NCBI RefSeq assembly: GCF_010731715.1
Contig: NZ_AP022587.1
Coordinates: 4,650,001-4,714,000 of the forward strand
Reading direction: 5' to 3'
Source: Mycobacterium stomatepiae
Lineage (GTDB): Bacteria; Actinomycetota; Actinomycetes; Mycobacteriales; Mycobacteriaceae
DNA: 64,000 nucleotides
Below are positions 43,140 to 50,369 of the stretch, piece after piece; position 1 is the stretch's first letter, and every line of letters begins with the position of its first letter. The position numbers were made by a program, and so were the translations under genes. Under the pieces are notes generated by a model. The model was not told the DNA's origin and ran no database searches. It saw only the letters and a program-made list of their open reading frames with translations.

Positions 43140-44231
43140 TTATCTCGCGCCGCCCCGCAGCCGCTCGACGGCCAGCCGCCCCGCGCCGATCTGCTCGCTG
43201 GGCGGCAGGGAATCGGCGTCGATGACGGCCGCGACCGAGGCCTCGGGGCCGGTCGCCAGTTCGGTGCCGGCGGGCAGTCCCCGCTTGAGCAACGCCAGCG
43301 CGATCGGCCCCAGATCCACGTGATCGACGGCGGTGCCCAGCCGTCCCACCGCACGCCCGCCCGCCAGCACCGGGTCGCCGGTGCAGGGTCGGTCCACCGA
43401 GCCGTCAAGGTGCAACAGCACCAGCATTCGGGGCGGTTTGCCCAGGTTGTGGACCCGGGCGACGGTCTCCTGCCCTCGGTAGCAGCCCTTGTCCAGGTGG
43501 ACGGCCCCGGCGCCGGGACCACCGATCCACCGCACCTCGTGCGGAATCGTGCGTTCGTCGGTGTCGACGCCGAGGCGCGGGCGCACCGCCGCGACCCGAT
43601 GGGCCTCGTAAGCCCACACCCCGGCCGGTCGCACGCCGGCCTGCGCGAAGCGGCCTTGCCAGCCGGCCGCGTCGGCACGCGGCACCAGCAGGTCGAGCTC
43701 GATCTGGCCGGCGGGGGCCGGCATCCGCCGCACAAAGCCGCCGCCGGCCAGCGCAATGGCGACCAGCTCGTCGGGCAGGGCGCCCAGGGCAAGCACGTCG
43801 AGCACCGCGCGGTCGGCCAGTCGGGGACCGATCAGCGACAAGACCGCCAGGTCGGCGGCGGCCGGCGTGACGTCGGACCAGAACACCATCTTGCTCAGGT
43901 AGCTCAGCAACGGCTCGCCGCGCCAGGGTTCGGTGTCGAGATAGGTGACGCCGCCGAGTTCGGTCTGCAGCCAGTGGTCCTCGACGCGGCCCTGCCCATC
44001 CAAGCTCAGATTCTGGGTGCTGGACCCGTCGGGAAGCTCGCTGACGTGCTGGGTCGAGATGTTGTGTAGCCAGTTCTGCCGGTCCGCGCCGGTCAGCGTC
44101 AGGACCGCGCGGTGCGAGCGGTCCACCAGCACCGCATCGGTTTCGGCCGCGCGCTGCTCGCTGAACGGATCGCCGTAGTGCCAGACCGCGCCGGCGTCGG
44201 GTCCCGAATCGGGTGCGGGTACTGCAGTCAT
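43140..44231 (-). CDS. ygfZ: Folate-binding protein YgfZ (Fe-S cluster repair)
   Basis: A 363-residue protein of the GcvT-like folate-binding fold that supports synthesis or repair of Fe-S enzymes. The family signature KGCYRGQE lies near residue 243. The N-terminal LTLTGADRQNWLHNISTQHV and the late LALLKRGLPAGTEL are also typical. ATG 44229-44231 has a strong GGAGGAG upstream. It is divergent from pabC, matching Rv0811c/Rv0812. Confidence 0.92.
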   Translation of the reverse strand: MTAVPAPDSGPDAGAVWHYGDPFSEQRAAETDAVLVDRSHRAVLTLTGADRQNWLHNISTQHVSELPDGSSTQNLSLDGQGRVEDHWLQTELGGVTYLDTEPWRGEPLLSYLSKMVFWSDVTPAAADLAVLSLIGPRLADRAVLDVLALGALPDELVAIALAGGGFVRRMPAPAGQIELDLLVPRADAAGWQGRFAQAGVRPAGVWAYEAHRVAAVRPRLGVDTDERTIPHEVRWIGGPGAGAVHLDKGCYRGQETVARVHNLGKPPRMLVLLHLDGSVDRPCTGDPVLAGGRAVGRLGTAVDHVDLGPIALALLKRGLPAGTELATGPEASVAAVIDADSLPPSEQIGAGRLAVERLRGGAR

Positions 44232-44321
44232 GTGCGCCGCTCCTCCTTTTGCTCTGCCTCGTCGCCCCCGCCAGTCACACGTCAACTCTACGGATTCACC
44301 TCTGCCCGGCCTCACGCCCGC

Positions 44322-44381
44322 GAACGTGCGGCCAGCCGCGGATTCGGCGGTGAGCGTACGGCTGGCCGCGCATTCGGCAAC
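44322..44381. repeat. Two imperfect 30-base tandem repeats
   Basis: Units 44322-44351 and 44352-44381 match at about 22 of 30 bases (core CGTRCGGCYRGCCGCGNATTCGGC), with a partial third unit from 44382. They lie in the ygfZ-pabC divergent promoter region. Confidence 0.5.
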
Positions 44382-44412
44382 GGGTGTGTGCTGGCCCCCG
44401 GTTCGCGGCGGC

Positions 44413-44418
44413 TAGGCT
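44413..44418 (+). promoter_or_regulatory. -10 element of a leaderless pabC promoter
   Basis: TAGGCT ends eight bases before the ATG at 44427, and no ribosome-binding site intervenes. The same hexamer precedes purC. Confidence 0.5.
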
Positions 44419-44426
44419 CTGTCGGC

Positions 44427-45317
44427 ATGGCAGCCCAGACGGGTGTGATCGTCACCCTCGACGGCGAAATACATCCGCCCGGCGCCCCGCTGCTGCATGC
44501 CGACGACCTCGCGGCCGTTCGCGGTGACGGTGCCTTCGAGACCCTGTTGGTCCGTGACGGCGGGGCGTGTCTGGTCGGGCCGCATCTGCAGCGCCTGACC
44601 CAGTCGGCCAAGTTCATGGATCTACCCGAGCCGGACCTGGCGAATTGGCGGCGCGCGATCGACATCGCCACCCGGGAATGGGTGGCCGGCTCGTCCGGCG
44701 AGGGGGCAATGCGGTTGATCTACAGCCGCGGTCGCGAGAGCGGTTCGGGGCCCACCGCGTACGTGATGGTCACCGCTGTCCCGGAACGGGTGGCCGTGGT
44801 TCGCAGCAATGGGGTCGCGGCGATCACGCTGGACCGGGGGCTACCCGCCATCGGTGCCGGCGAGATGCCGTGGCTGCTGGCCGGTGCGAAAACCCTGTCG
44901 TACGCGGTGAATATGGCCGCGCTGCGGCACGCCGCCAGGCAGGGCGCCGGCGACGTGATTTTCGTCAGCTCGGACGGCTACATCCTGGAGGGCCCGCGTT
45001 CGACGGTGGTGATCGCCACCGATTCGTATGCGGGCCCGGACAGCAATCTGTGCCTGCTGACGCCGCCGCCCTGGTATCCCATCTTGCGTGGCACCACCCA
45101 GCAGGCGCTGTTCGAGGTCGCGCGCAGCAAAGGCTACGACTGCGACTACCGGGCGCTACGGGTTTCAGATTTGCTTGCCGCCCAAGGTATCTGGCTGGTT
45201 TCCAGCATGACACTGGCGGCCCGTGCGCACACGCTCGATGGCCGCCCGCTGGGCCGCTCATCGATGACCGAGGACTTCGCCCAACTGGTGGACGCGGCGA
45301 TCGTCAGCGATCGCTGA
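44427..45317 (+). CDS. pabC: Aminodeoxychorismate lyase / class IV aminotransferase-fold PLP enzyme
   Basis: A 296-residue PLP enzyme that makes p-aminobenzoate for folate. The catalytic Lys is in GAKTLSYAVNM near residue 155, the phosphate-binding regions are LRGTTQQALFE and the Gly-rich LEGPRSTVVI, and GDGAFETLLVRDG lies near 33. Class IV aminotransferases (D-amino-acid, branched-chain) look similar, but the length and locus match Rv0812, which has been described as the lyase. Confidence 0.88.
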   Translation: MAAQTGVIVTLDGEIHPPGAPLLHADDLAAVRGDGAFETLLVRDGGACLVGPHLQRLTQSAKFMDLPEPDLANWRRAIDIATREWVAGSSGEGAMRLIYSRGRESGSGPTAYVMVTAVPERVAVVRSNGVAAITLDRGLPAIGAGEMPWLLAGAKTLSYAVNMAALRHAARQGAGDVIFVSSDGYILEGPRSTVVIATDSYAGPDSNLCLLTPPPWYPILRGTTQQALFEVARSKGYDCDYRALRVSDLLAAQGIWLVSSMTLAARAHTLDGRPLGRSSMTEDFAQLVDAAIVSDR

Positions 45318-45553: not shown

Positions 45554-47056
45554 CTATTGAATGCTTCGCGCCGCGATCTGTTCGGCAATTTTGCCGGCTT
45601 GGCCGGGAGCGGCATCCGGGCCGCACACCGTCACGTCGATGACGTTGGCGCCCTCCGCGTGCAGCACGTGGTGGCATGTCTTTGCGCTGTCCGCGCGGGT
45701 GCGCTGCTGCGCAATCTTGGGCACGGTCCCATCGACTTGAGCGAACGTGTAATCAAAGCTTCTGCCATTGAGCTTCTCGGTCACCGTCTTTCCGGCGCAG
45801 GCCTTCCACTTGTCCGCGGATTGCTGGACGAACGCGCTCGCCTTATCGGGCGACGAGAATTGCGAGATACCCTCGATGATCCGCAGCGGCGGGTCCTGTC
45901 CGGGCGAGTGCACGATCAGCCCCGTGGTCGCGGTGAATCCGCTGGCGCCCTGGTAGACCGCCGCGATGGTGGGCTCGAAAGCGCCGGCGCACTCCGGATC
46001 GGACAGCGTGTACTTGGGGCTGCGCAGCTGACTGACTTTTTCGCCGGGCACCAACGCTGGGTCACCCACGATGGTGCCGACCTCCGGGGCTCCGAGCAAA
46101 AAGGTGTCCAGCTTCGACGATTCGACACCCGAATCCGCCGCCGTCGGTACCGAATTCGAGCCGGACGCCTTCGGGGCCGGCTTTGTTTTGCCGCCCTGGG
46201 TGGTCATCACCACCACGATCGCGATTGCGGCGATGACCGCCACCGCGGCACCGCCGATGATGATCAGCCGCTTGTTCGACCCGCCGCCGGCCCCGCCACC
46301 GCTCACGGCGGTCGGGACGGTGACCGCGTTCGCGCCGGTCGGTGCTGCCGCGGGAGTCGCGGCAGCAGCCGGAGACGCGGTGGCCCCCGCGGGCGAAACG
46401 TCCTTGGCTTCGATTTCGGCTAGCACGTTGTCGATTTCGCTTCGCGTGCGGTAGGTGACGTCGTGTCGCAGTCGCAGCATGCGCAGCAGTTGCGCGATGT
46501 CGCCGCGGGCGCTGGGGTCGTCGCCGTCCTCGTCGAAACCCGACCGCAACTCGACCAGCAGCTGGAGCTGCTGCTGCGGGCTGAGCTCTTTTTCGGCGAG
46601 GGTATTGCCCAGCCGGGTGATGTAGCCGAACGGCACCGGGGGCTCTTCGGGCAGCGGATCCGGCAGCGGCACGGGCTTGCTGCGAAGCGCGTGCACGGCG
46701 GTGACCAACTGAATGCCGGCATCGACCGTCGGCTCCCGGTAGTCGATGATCTGCAATGCGGCAAGGGGATTCACGCGCATGCTGTCGACTTCACCGATCC
46801 GGACCGGAAGGATCGGACGGCCGAGGGCCTGGGCGTAGCGCAGCTCCGCCTGGCTCGGCTTTGATTGCAGCCAGTTGCTAGACAGTGCGACGATGAACAC
46901 CTCACAGTCGCGGATCTGCTCGAGGATTTTGGCCCACCACGAGTCGCCGCCGAGCTCTTGGTCGAACCACACCTGGTTCTGCCCGCGGCGAAGCGCGGTG
47001 GTCAAAGCGTCGACCGTGGACCGATCTTGGCTCGAGTAGCTGATGAACAGCGCCAT
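45554..47056 (-). CDS. TIR domain - transmembrane - PknH-type sensor fusion protein
   Basis: A 500-residue protein with three parts. Residues 1-125 form a TIR domain: FISYSSQDR, QVWFDQELGGDSWW, and SSNWLQSKPSQAELRY with Glu71 at the usual NADase glutamate position. After a Pro/Ala-rich linker comes one membrane helix (LIIIGGAAVAVIAAIAIVVVM, 264-284). Residues 305-500 resemble the extracellular PknH C-terminal sensor, with four Cys (PECAG, KACAG, TCHHV, VCGPD). So an outside sensor is tied to an inside TIR. GGAG precedes the ATG. A membrane RyR protein lies upstream on the same strand. Confidence 0.87.
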   Translation of the reverse strand: MALFISYSSQDRSTVDALTTALRRGQNQVWFDQELGGDSWWAKILEQIRDCEVFIVALSSNWLQSKPSQAELRYAQALGRPILPVRIGEVDSMRVNPLAALQIIDYREPTVDAGIQLVTAVHALRSKPVPLPDPLPEEPPVPFGYITRLGNTLAEKELSPQQQLQLLVELRSGFDEDGDDPSARGDIAQLLRMLRLRHDVTYRTRSEIDNVLAEIEAKDVSPAGATASPAAAATPAAAPTGANAVTVPTAVSGGGAGGGSNKRLIIIGGAAVAVIAAIAIVVVMTTQGGKTKPAPKASGSNSVPTAADSGVESSKLDTFLLGAPEVGTIVGDPALVPGEKVSQLRSPKYTLSDPECAGAFEPTIAAVYQGASGFTATTGLIVHSPGQDPPLRIIEGISQFSSPDKASAFVQQSADKWKACAGKTVTEKLNGRSFDYTFAQVDGTVPKIAQQRTRADSAKTCHHVLHAEGANVIDVTVCGPDAAPGQAGKIAEQIAARSIQ

Positions 47057-47208
47057 CGCAGTCTCCTAGGGTGAAGGGGAGCGAACGAACTGGGGCGAAA
47101 GCCTGCCTGCGCGACCCGTACGCACATGCGCCGATACCGTATCAGTGTTGGGCCCCTTCAGGATGCGCAAATTTTCAGCGCTAATTGGACTCGGCAACAG
47201 GCGGCCGG

Positions 47209-49581
47209 TCACCCCTCGCCACCGTCTGGGGCATGGGCTTCTTCGGGCGGTCGGTATGCGGCATAGCGCCGGGCGAACTCGTCACCGGGGACCGGCCACT
47301 GCTCACCGCTGGCTCCGCGCACAATCCAATCGCCTTCGCCGGCATTCGTCGGCCCCTCCAGGGTGTTGATGGTCTCGCCCGGATAAGCCGGGCGGGCTTG
47401 TACCCGCCCCTTGCGTTGCCACTGCCCGTCGCCCGCGGGCTCGTAGGTGTCCCGGAAAATGTCGTCACGCACCGACCAGAGCTTGCCGTCCTCGGAGATC
47501 GCCCAGTCGCCCGCATCGGCGCGCATCGTGTGTCCGGAGTCCGACGTCCATGTCCATGGCGCGCTTCGTTGTTCGGCGGCCACCGTCCCCACCCGGGTGA
47601 ACGATTGCCACAGCGGGCGTGAACGAAAGCCCAGCTGCCGCAGGCTCCACAGCGTGCCCGCCAGGCTGCGCACCGCGGCGTTGAGCAGCTCGGGGTCGGC
47701 CTCCACCACCGACCAGTCGACGAGCTTGTTGTGGATCTTGCGCGAGTCATCGCGCGGCGTACCGTATTTCCAGCCGTTGCGGCGGTAGTAGCGACACCAG
47801 TCCTCGTGCTCGGCCTGAGCCATCCGCACCGACGAGTCTTGGTCGAAGCCCATCAGCCCAAGCTGTTCCAGCGGCGTCAACTCCGCCATTTCGCTGCCGG
47901 ACAGTTGGGTGGGTGGGCTGCCCCAGGTGTTCCAGGTGTGTCCCGCGATCTGCTCCACCATCCACAGCGCGTTGCGGACCTGGCGCCGGTTGGACCCGCG
48001 GTAGAACTCGTTGAGCTCGGCCCACGGCACCGATGCGGGCCCCCGCGTCCAGCTCGGGTCGATCGTGGCGACATAGCGCTCGTGGATCAGCCGCGCCGCC
48101 CGCTCCCAGGCGTCCTGTACCTGACCCTCTTGGGTATCCAGCACCAGCGAATAGGACTGCAGCCGGCCGACGACCTGGATGGAATCGTCGGTGATGCTGG
48201 TGTTCAGGTCCGAGGCGTAGATGGGCATGTCGGGGAAGCGGGCGGCCAGCCTCGCGGCGGTTGTCCCGGCATGGGCGTCGACGAAGATCACCGCGCTGGT
48301 CGCGGGGTCGACGTCACCGATCAGCTTCAGCATCGCCGGTATCGTCGGCGCCTCCGCGACCGCGTCGATGGTCGGGCCCTCCGATACGAATCCGGCTTGC
48401 TGACGGTGGAACTCGTGATCGCGCAGGTACTCCTCGGCGTCTCGTTCGACGAGGGTCAGCGCCGGCAACGCCACCGCGCCGGGCGGAGTGTAGAAGTCAC
48501 GCTCCAGGGCGCGCTGGGTCAGATCCGCGCACAGTGCCAGTGTCAATTGCGAAGTGCCGCAGACGAATACGCGTTTGATTCGCCCCGCTGCCAGGACGCC
48601 GTCGAGCAGCCGGCCCGCGGTCACCTCGTATTTGCCGACCACGTCGGCCGCCCAGCGGGTATCCGATCCGCCGAACTGCTGGGCGCGCCAGGCCTGGGCC
48701 AGCTAGGGATCGTCCATGCGAACGATCAGCGGCAACCGTCGCTTGTGGGCGATTTCGGACAGACGGCGGCTGATCTGATCCAGCCACATCAGGTTGAGTG
48801 CCGGGTCGGGCGCCATCAGGTAAAGCCGAGACAGGCGGCGCCACAGCCGAAGTGACACCAGGGTCGACGGCGTGTTGAAGTCCACCAGCACCACCCGGGC
48901 GCCTTGGCGGCGGGCCCGCTGCACGCGCTCGTCGCTGGCACCGGTGATGACCACGAGGGTGCCGCGCCGGTCCAAGGTGCGCGCGACGGCGCTGATCATC
49001 GACTGGGTGTCACTGTCGACACCAACGATGGCAGTGACGGATTCGGCCCAGTTGGCCCGCAGTCGGTCCACCTGTGACCGGAAGACCCCGACCACCGCGC
49101 CGCCCAATCCGGTGAAGATCGCCGACAGCGCGGCGATCCGGGCCAGTTCCAGGCCCACCGGTGTCGGGCTCGGGCAGGTTTTCCCGCTGACGGAGAAGTC
49201 GCCGGTGCCGCCCTTGACTAGACTCGCCGTCGCCATCAGGGGAGTGAAGAAGGCCGGATGGTTGGCGTCGTGACATCCCCAGTACGAAGTCAGCCCGAGC
49301 ACCGCCGTCATCGGGACCAGGGCTGCAATCAGGGTGAACGAAACACCCACCACACGGTGGCTACCCGAGCGGAAATTCAACACCGACGCCCAAATGAGCA
49401 CGACGACAACGACGGCGAGCGTCGGCATCGATCCCGGCTCGCCGAACCACCCCAGCCAGGCCGGAAATGAGTCGTCGATGGACGGGCGCGCATCCAGCAC
49501 GGCCAGGTAGGCGATCAACACCAGGCCGACGGCGGTTACGGCCCAACGCAATATGGGCGAGGGTGCCCTCGTGGGACGCAT
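47209..49581 (-). pseudogene. Membrane TrkA/RCK-like protein with RyR domains, interrupted by TAG
   Basis: From ATG 49581 the frame gives about four membrane helices (within residues 10-160) and a TrkA-N-like Rossmann domain (AIVGVDSDTQSMISAVA; VVLVDFNTPS). It stops at TAG 48703-48705 (codon 293) after VRMDDP. The same frame continues LAQAWRAQQFGG, then a second Rossmann region (RVFVCGTSQLTLAL) and two RyR-like segments (WAELNEFYRGSNRRQVR; HEDWCRYYRRNGWKYG). TGG to TAG is likely. Full length would be 790 codons, recalling RCK-regulated channels of the CASTOR/POLLUX type. An internal GTG near 48642 could restart the distal part. Confidence 0.8.
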
Positions 49582-49700: not shown

Positions 49701-50369
49701 CTAGCCGACGAATCGCGACAGCCGCGCCGACAGGTGCGGCACCAGCCCGCCGTCGGCGTCCACCCGCTCCTCGACGTAGGCGAGGTCGCCGCCCTCGACG
49801 ATGCCGTAGAGGCGCTTGGCGCCGCCGACCAGAACGCCCGACCGGCTGCGCGCCAGGGCATCGGTCACCAACTCCCACGACGACTGGTTGCGTGGGCGCC
49901 CGTAGAAGAGCTCGACATAGCCCGACGAGTGGGCGAGCAACAGCTCGATGGCCTGAGATTCGCTCGGGTCGTCGGGATCGAGCACGAAACGCCAGAAGCC
50001 GGTCTCGCGCAGGCCGGGCTCCTGGTAGGCGCCGTCGGTGTCGAGCTGCCAGGATCTGGCTTCCCAGTTCAGGTAGTCGCCGCCGTCGTGGGAGACCACG
50101 ATCTGCTGGCCGAACCGGTAGTCGCCGTCGGACCCGCGGCCCTCGCCCTCACCGCGCCACACGCCGACCAGTGGCAGCAGGGCCAGCAGCGCGTCGTTGA
50201 GGTTGGCGCCTTCGCGCAGGTTCGCGGTGTCGGCCGGGATCGGCAGGTCGTCGAATGCAGGGATGTTGCGGGCCGCGGTCACCTTGGCGCGTTCGGCGGC
50301 GGCAGCCACCGCGCGGCCGCCAGAATTTGCAGAGCCGGCCGGGCCCTCTGGGTCATCGTCGTACGTCAC
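49701..50369 (-). CDS. Nitrobindin/FABP-like beta-barrel protein (Rv0813c-like)
   Basis: A 222-residue protein with the nitrobindin motif GVWRGEGEG (GxWxGxG) near residue 70, the strand [12 protein letters not shown], and a late His in [11 protein letters not shown] that could be a heme ligand. The Rv0813c structure is described as fatty-acid-binding-protein-like. The first 45 residues are probably disordered. GTG at 50369 overlaps the stop of a tiny membrane-protein gene in GTGA, so translation is coupled. Confidence 0.88.

Follow-up and report, generated by a model that had tools for sequence, protein, structure and literature searches.

Putative remains of a Thoeris-like TIR-to-channel unit bearing a RyR domain in Mycobacterium stomatepiae

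Why does the gene of a TIR protein with an extracellular sensor stand in tandem with the gene of a membrane protein carrying a domain of the animal ryanodine receptors (RyR)? This question is raised by a stretch of Mycobacterium stomatepiae DNA of 64,000 nucleotides (contig NZ_AP022587.1, positions 4,650,001 to 4,714,000; hereafter the window), which belongs to a genome consisting of a single 6.21-Mb contig with 100% completeness. The two genes, described as a tandem in an earlier note on this DNA, indeed share the minus strand with a gap of 152 base pairs, and they sit between a nitrobindin-type gene and a class IV aminotransferase gene. We consider, with a probability of roughly 0.6, that the locus holds the remains of a two-gene TIR-to-channel unit resembling Thoeris, in which a derivative of nicotinamide adenine dinucleotide (NAD) made by the TIR protein would gate a channel-like protein with RyR and RCK-like domains. 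The first gene has the following features.

45554..47056, minus strand: TIR-transmembrane-PknH_C protein of 500 residues with an ATG start (intact open frame, Pfam)
46727..47047, minus strand: TIR domain (PF13676), residues 4-110 (74.8 bits, cut-off 28; the same span from a TIR_2 genome scan)
46844..46846, minus strand: codon of Glu71 (invariant in 39/39 aligned sequences)
46208..46264, minus strand: single transmembrane helix, residues 265-283 (hydropathy)
45566..46126, minus strand: PknH_C ectodomain with four invariant cysteines (PF14032, 128.3 bits, cut-off 27; match to PDB 4esq at 1.2e-30)

The product of 45554-47056 belongs to the TIR_2 family and is predicted from its sequence to be an NADase, with Glu at the catalytic position. 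The TIR fold of this protein is assigned from profile matches. The earlier note had proposed that a TIR domain is joined to a PknH-type sensor with four cysteines, and the scores and the single helix listed above agree with this. In an alignment of the window protein with 38 homologues, every one of which shares its TIR-PknH_C type, Glu71 and the cysteines C356, C420, C461 and C478 show no variation (39/39 rows). Glu71, placed by the note in the NADase position, corresponds to the catalytic glutamate of TIR NADases, and Glu is present there in 79 of the 80 aligned TIR domains of the studied loci. The ectodomain is the fastest-changing part measured, with a median identity to the window of 50% against 85% for the TIR domain and 81% for the C-terminal piece of the RyR gene (49-50 loci), which fits a sensor under shifting pressure. 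A comparison with PADLOC 2023 gave no strong whole-protein match for the TIR protein: of its nine partial matches, seven fall in the TIR part (best 1.2e-6) and two cover residues 207-307. For either piece of the RyR gene, and for its relatives P0005 and P0012, PADLOC 2023 gave no match. A second TIR gene is found elsewhere in the window genome (G000:C1:5456855-5457202, in a frame of 377 residues). The second gene of the tandem, which is the only RyR match in this genome, is composed as follows.

48703..49581, minus strand: N-terminal piece of the RyR gene, 292 residues, with four membrane helices and the start of the first RCK-like domain (open frame, hydropathy, own model)
48703..48705, minus strand: in-frame TAG interrupting the RyR gene (frame reading; one TAG counted)
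47209..48642, minus strand: C-terminal piece of the RyR gene, a 477-residue open frame with the rest of the RCK-like domains, the RyR domain and the PGDYG modules (open frame, Pfam, relatives)

This gene had been taken for that of a single protein, a reading that did not hold for the window: the TAG at 48703-48705 splits it into two frames of 292 and 477 residues, where relatives have one protein of about 790 residues, and the reading of one intact product here was rejected. The C-terminal piece (48642-47209) lies in the same reading phase as the N-terminal piece starting at 49581. Relatives with 91-95% identity to the C-terminal piece (P0002-P0010) encode an unbroken RyR protein of 780-790 residues, Mycobacterium sp. 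pR1184 and M. ahvazicum being named examples (94% each). The two pieces were analysed apart, and natural intact relatives were used for full-length work. The TAG could be a sequencing error; unless it is, the receptor half has probably been lost in this strain. Because the RyR partner is broken here, the unit described below is that of the relatives, and it probably does not work in this genome.

The association of the two genes was surveyed across Mycobacterium. The C-terminal piece has matches in 98 of 248 sampled genomes of the genus, including four over the PGDYG end only (G108, G120, G134 and G222) and some broken copies. Among 96 neighbourhoods gathered, the RyR frame was called in 93, and the window-type TIR gene is next on the same strand in 50 of these (the PknH_C part being recognised in 46) and divergent and upstream in seven. 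Most tandem pairs are at the nitrobindin/pabC site of the window, so they represent one inherited arrangement and not independent evidence. The argument for pairing is borne by the other arrangements. Outside this site, the TIR-PknH_C gene is in tandem at L128 and divergent at L123-125, L127 and L150-153. Other mycobacteria have as TIR neighbour a protein of about 1400 residues with TIR-nSTAND1-transmembrane-WD40 architecture or one of about 940-980 residues with TIR-transmembrane-WD40 architecture (L130 and L132 by Pfam scan, others by clustering and the TIR profile). Pairing thus outlasts changes in orientation, locus and TIR architecture (TIR-PknH_C, TIR-nSTAND1-WD40 and TIR-WD40).

In 32 of 43 RyR loci (41 genomes) a TIR_2 match is found no further than 6 kb away, against 0.28 expected under uniform placement, and outside the nitrobindin site in 29 of 39 against 0.25 expected; the median genome carries two TIR genes, and the count omits four TIR matches below the family cut-off, one of which (in G192) is 5.3 kb from the RyR gene. 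These 41 RyR-positive genomes were taken from the 98, mainly for having RyR outside the nitrobindin locus, and 40 RyR-negative ones were taken from 150 in roughly the order of their handles, low-completeness genomes being skipped. TIR_2 is present in 40/41 of the former, G236 lacking it, and in 12/40 of the latter (Fisher p 2.9e-11, a value that is too small because of shared ancestry and the choice of genomes). When 79 named loci were examined, in a sample that overlaps the 43 loci, TIR was found in 70 (44/45 at the nitrobindin site and 26/34 elsewhere), and four of five further Mycobacterium loci also have it (L196, L197, L199 and L200). The pairing that the earlier note expected to be conserved across genomes is accordingly present.

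Several loci deserve mention in their own right. At the nitrobindin-type locus of L072, L146, L161, L162 and L164 the pair is broken or a remnant, and three of these genomes are of 3.2-3.3 Mb. In G224 the RyR gene (G224:C1:2103397) and the sole TIR_2 gene (G224:C1:1023564) are about 1.08 Mb apart, which makes this genome suitable for testing action at a distance. In eight loci (L130, L131, L140, L141, L147, L148, L149 and L155) a patatin-like phospholipase gene of cluster c21, possibly a further effector, is close to the RyR and TIR-STAND-WD40 genes (L130:8407-9558; PF01734, 2e-27, the only one scanned).

What kind of protein the RyR partner may be was judged mainly from predicted structures, in which one segment of the window needs to be located.

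49216..49248, minus strand: segment resembling a pore helix (residues 112-122), flanked by membrane helices 3 and 4 (models of P0005 and of the N-terminal piece; conserved surroundings)

The model of the intact relative P0005, with a predicted local distance difference test (pLDDT) of 82.5 and a predicted template-modelling score (pTM) of 0.67, has three membrane helices and a long fourth one, preceded by the short helix 112-122; two Rossmann-type domains, the RyR domain and two beta modules follow. Its channel and gating part has GsuK with adenosine diphosphate (ADP; 4.6e-7), Slo1, TrkA and MthK as best solved matches, and its RyR part matches RyR Repeat12 structures, including RyR3. For the model of the window N-terminal piece (pLDDT 84.1, pTM 0.65), MthK is the first Foldseek match (2.1e-5); alignments to full-length MthK span residues 77-292, corresponding to the pore module and RCK, and the RCK part alone fits with a root mean square deviation (rmsd) of 2.1 over 98 residues. 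The models place helix 112-122 between membrane helices 77-100 and 142-178 and an RCK-like fold after the last membrane helix, and in the segment between helices 3 and 4 many residues are conserved in 80% or more of the alignment. From these models the RyR protein is predicted to be a channel-like membrane protein on RCK-like domains. The stretch from helix 3 to helix 4 contains a GYG-type filter (G[YFL]G) in 0 of 37 aligned proteins, so that potassium selectivity is unsupported, and the label of a potassium channel was rejected. Of the membrane helices and two Rossmann/RCK-like domains that the earlier note had recognised, the models agree with both, while the TrkA_N profile (PF02254) gave 15.9 bits in the window piece against a cut-off of 23.8 and matched 6/37 relatives at an expectation value (E) of 0.01; in RyR proteins of another family TrkA_N reaches 43.7 and 48 bits.

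Relatives beyond the genus were also found. A search of plasmids gave one record with an RyR relative, a mobilizable Rhodococcus plasmid, where the identity is 37% over 96% of the query. Its RyR gene is flanked on one side by a divergent gene with DUF4062 (39.7 bits, cut-off 24.7) and on the opposite side by genes annotated as WD40 and TIR, the latter scoring 27.3 bits with TIR_2, just under the cut-off of 28. DUF4062 is reported, in the accessible part of PMC13174449, as a TIR-like NADase. Another bacterial family has a more distant group of TrkA_N-RyR proteins, present in 14 loci (L181-L194), and two of these RyR proteins were Pfam-scanned. There a DUF4062-NACHT-HEAT protein is the neighbour in L192 and L193, as confirmed by Pfam, and a neighbour of the same size, identified by size alone, is found in L185 and L191; the remaining ten have different neighbours with no match to the TIR profile. 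The TIR link is therefore partial outside Mycobacterium. In L185, L191, L192 and L193 this actinobacterial TrkA_N-RyR family also has an overlapping gene of about 170 residues, and that of L192 has no Pfam match.

The genes that flank the pair in the window adjoin the locus in relatives too.

44112..45317, plus strand: class IV aminotransferase (PF01063; Pfam), whose true start may be further downstream
49701..50369, minus strand: nitrobindin-type heme-binding barrel (PF08768; Pfam)

The strongest point in favour of a physiological role, and not of defence, is this fixed chromosomal site. The pair would then be a housekeeping circuit for envelope or osmotic stress: PknH_C would pick up a signal from the envelope or of redox kind, TIR would answer it with a nucleotide, and the channel-like protein would correct the ion balance. 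In about 50 loci the pair stands at one site, flanked by nitrobindin and a pabC-type gene, and its inheritance looks vertical, which is what such a circuit would show; so is the RCK-channel fold found by structure match, since this fold serves osmotic and ion homeostasis. We regard this explanation as unlikely, because the partner is swapped to STAND/NACHT-WD40 and DUF4062 proteins, a copy is on a plasmid, presence is patchy (98/248 genomes, four over the PGDYG end only), copies are broken or remnant in several genomes and the ectodomain evolves fast. The swaps with STAND, NACHT and WD40 proteins, patchiness, plasmid carriage and broken copies are also the reasons why a role in defence is suggested for the TIR-to-channel unit.

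The second question is what the RyR domain does, for which the following positions were compared with RyDEP. According to the accessible text of a 2026 preprint (PMC13232231), phage RyR domains bind or cleave isomers of cyclic ADP-ribose (cADPR), and RyDEP (mycobacteriophage DyoEdafos gp78) is a phage glycosidase of 138 residues ending signalling, whose anti-defence effect was assayed in B. subtilis, mycobacterial tools being absent.

47635..47898, minus strand: RyR (Repeat12-type) domain (PF02026, 34.4 bits, cut-off 27.4; extent from the P0005 model)
47806..47808, minus strand: codon of His279 of the C-terminal piece, aligned with RyDEP H75 (alignment)
47797..47799, minus strand: codon of Trp282 of the C-terminal piece, aligned with RyDEP W78 (alignment)
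47731..47733, minus strand: codon of His304 of the C-terminal piece, aligned with RyDEP H100 (alignment)
47680..47682, minus strand: codon of Asn321 of the C-terminal piece, at the place of the RyDEP catalytic acid D117 (alignment)
47257..47607, minus strand: two beta modules, the second scoring as PGDYG (PF14083, 30.1 bits, cut-off 27; extents from the P0005 model)

The segment that the earlier note had called RyR-like scores above the cut-off of the RyR family, and the profile matches 36/37 relatives at E 0.01. For residue counts, the 96 loci minus four with no row (L142, L162, L163 and L164) gave 92 rows, and with one gapped row removed 91 bacterial domains were compared. The equivalents of H75, W78 and H100 are His in 90/91, Trp in 91/91 and His in 91/91, respectively, and the window keeps all three. 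At the place of D117, 55 domains have Asn, 11 have Asp and 25 have another residue; the window has Asn, as do 43 of the 50 window-type loci (L069-L118), two of which have Asp. The catalytic dyad of RyDEP, His plus Asp, is therefore incomplete in the window, where His is present and Asn takes the place of Asp. With the catalytic acid mostly replaced and the contacts kept, the residues predict a domain that binds more than it cleaves.

All six phage RyR proteins aligned, gp78 and five others, have Asp at this position, and in a tree of 102 sequences they form one clade with a support of 0.98, apart from the bacterial domains, the alignment being short. On this separate clade, and with the same caution as to alignment length, descent of RyDEP from mycobacterial receptors was rejected as a likely origin. 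Among solved structures, the RyR domain matches Repeat12 structures and PDB 35tm, a RyR-domain protein of 139 residues, which we infer from the fitting length to be phage RyDEP. A tblastn scan of viral_contigs with the query A1 found no relative. The C-terminal PGDYG module (47257-47607) matches proteins of unknown function in phages of Staphylococcus, Gordonia, Lactobacillus and others, as well as in an M. abscessus prophage (matches H1-H42). The PGDYG part is separate from the RyR open frame in L148, L149, L156, L157, L159 and L196, lying beyond the TIR gene in L148 and L149, and one relative (P0323) bears two RyR-type domains in tandem.

These residues also bear on the idea that the RyR protein is not an effector and is instead an off-switch, degrading or sequestering the TIR signal as phage RyDEP does. 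It shares the domain family and the ligand-contact residues with RyDEP, yet the catalytic acid is absent in the window and in 80/91 domains (a lack that does not speak against sequestering), the RyR domain is joined to a channel-like membrane module and a gating ring, and phage RyRs form their own clade (six proteins in a short alignment). We therefore hold the off-switch to be quite improbable. That the RCK domains and not RyR sense the event, with loss of NAD+ or a rise of ADP-ribose acting on the gating ring, has in its favour the GsuK structures with ADP and NAD bound among the structure matches; it is very improbable in view of RyR ligand residues that are nearly invariant and a weak TrkA_N (6/37 at E 0.01). 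Chance neighbourhood of genes with unrelated functions, to which RyR loci without TIR and TIR-PknH_C genes far from any RyR gene might point, can hardly be believed when adjacency is about a hundred-fold over uniform expectation in several arrangements.

Taking the TIR-to-channel unit as the preferred reading, we propose the following course of events for the intact form of the relatives. The TIR protein would be both sensor and enzyme: trouble would be detected by the fast-evolving ectodomain, or by the WD40/STAND module at other loci, and the TIR domain would turn NAD+ into an ADP-ribose-type nucleotide. The RyR protein would be both receptor and effector, the nucleotide being bound by the RyR domain joined to the RCK-like gating ring, and a changed state of the channel-like membrane pore may then stop the growth of an infected or stressed cell. 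The putative circuit of the earlier note (sensor outside, TIR inside, product gating the RyR/RCK protein) fits the models and the accessible text of the phage-RyR preprint (PMC13232231). In this reading the make-up of the genes, their pairing and the kept catalytic and contact residues are observations and the RCK-channel-like fold is a prediction, while the nucleotide, its binding, gating and a part in phage defence are inferred.

A wider version is more doubtful and is offered tentatively: an ADP-ribose nucleotide, cyclic or other, might be made by the TIR proteins and open the RyR/RCK membrane channel. This would be a prokaryotic counterpart of the disputed cADPR-ryanodine-receptor axis of animals, and it might be one host target which mycobacteriophage RyDEP enzymes evolved to silence. 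If true, bacterial TIR signalling can work via a ligand-gated channel bearing a domain of animal ryanodine receptors, and the pair is a candidate mycobacterial host circuit for the signal destroyed by mycobacteriophage RyDEP. It would also provide a small bacterial system for asking whether nucleotides of the cADPR type have a direct action on RyR domains, a question of long standing.

Several observations weigh against the TIR-to-channel unit. The RyR copy of the window is interrupted, and in about 50 loci the pair occupies one fixed site flanked by genes of housekeeping type, which is not typical of defence islands. TIR was not found within about 7 kb by tblastn or the TIR profile in 11/96 loci (L119, L120, L122, L126, L129, L136, L139, L156, L157, L159 and L163), among which L136 ends at a contig end, L156, L157 and L159 have TIR 8.8-9.0 kb off, and L120 lacks the TIR gene with its RyR frame open; conversely, some TIR-PknH_C genes are far from any RyR gene. 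As for the channel, the GYG-type filter is absent, the models have a pTM of 0.65-0.67, and joint fits of pore and RCK have an rmsd of about 10 or more, so that the relative placement of pore and ring is unreliable. As for the ligand, the catalytic-acid position is still Asp in 11/91 RyR domains, phage RyR binders without cleavage can also carry that Asp, and the domains used for ligand binding in PMC13232231 are those of phages, not bacteria. Our literature searches surfaced no experiment that addresses ligand, gating or phage for these proteins.

How does the pair compare with known systems? Literature searches gave no paper describing a TIR-RyR gene pair, a negative that does not cover two works which could contain one. 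The PknH-type sensor kinases have the same ectodomain family (PDB 4esq), and TIR is here in place of the kinase. RyDEP, as presented in the accessible text of PMC13232231, has an RyR domain with the same ligand-contact His/Trp/His, but it also has the catalytic Asp, which is missing from most of the bacterial domains studied here. In our tree it belongs to the separate phage clade. The RCK-gated potassium channels MthK, GsuK and Slo1 resemble the predicted arrangement of a pore module of the last two helices followed by RCK-like gating domains, whereas the RyR protein is without the GYG filter, has two more membrane helices than MthK and has RyR and PGDYG modules added. With Repeat12 of the animal ryanodine receptor, whose ligand role is described as unsettled in the same accessible text (PMC13232231), it shares the domain fold, conserved ligand residues and attachment to a channel, while the channel body and size are unrelated.

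The closest comparison is with Thoeris. Type I (TIR with a SIR2-SLOG ThsA; accessible parts of PMC11204291 and PMC12948488) is alike in that a TIR enzyme feeds a receptor-effector, but no SIR2 or SLOG domain scored here. Type II (TIR with a transmembrane-macro ThsA effector; accessible part of PMC11204291) also has a TIR gene adjoining a membrane effector with a nucleotide-binding domain and a proposed membrane perturbation; in the present pair, RyR replaces macro, a four-helix pore-like module stands on RCK-like domains, and the TIR protein is membrane-anchored with an ectodomain of its own. Although a TIR gene is adjacent, we rejected membership in Thoeris and did not file the pair there, because Pfam searches for the defining effector domains SIR2, SLOG and macro, run on the window pieces at E up to 1 and on 37 relatives at E up to 0.01, did not find them. 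We regard the pair as a variant of TIR signalling systems, set apart from Thoeris by its putative effector.

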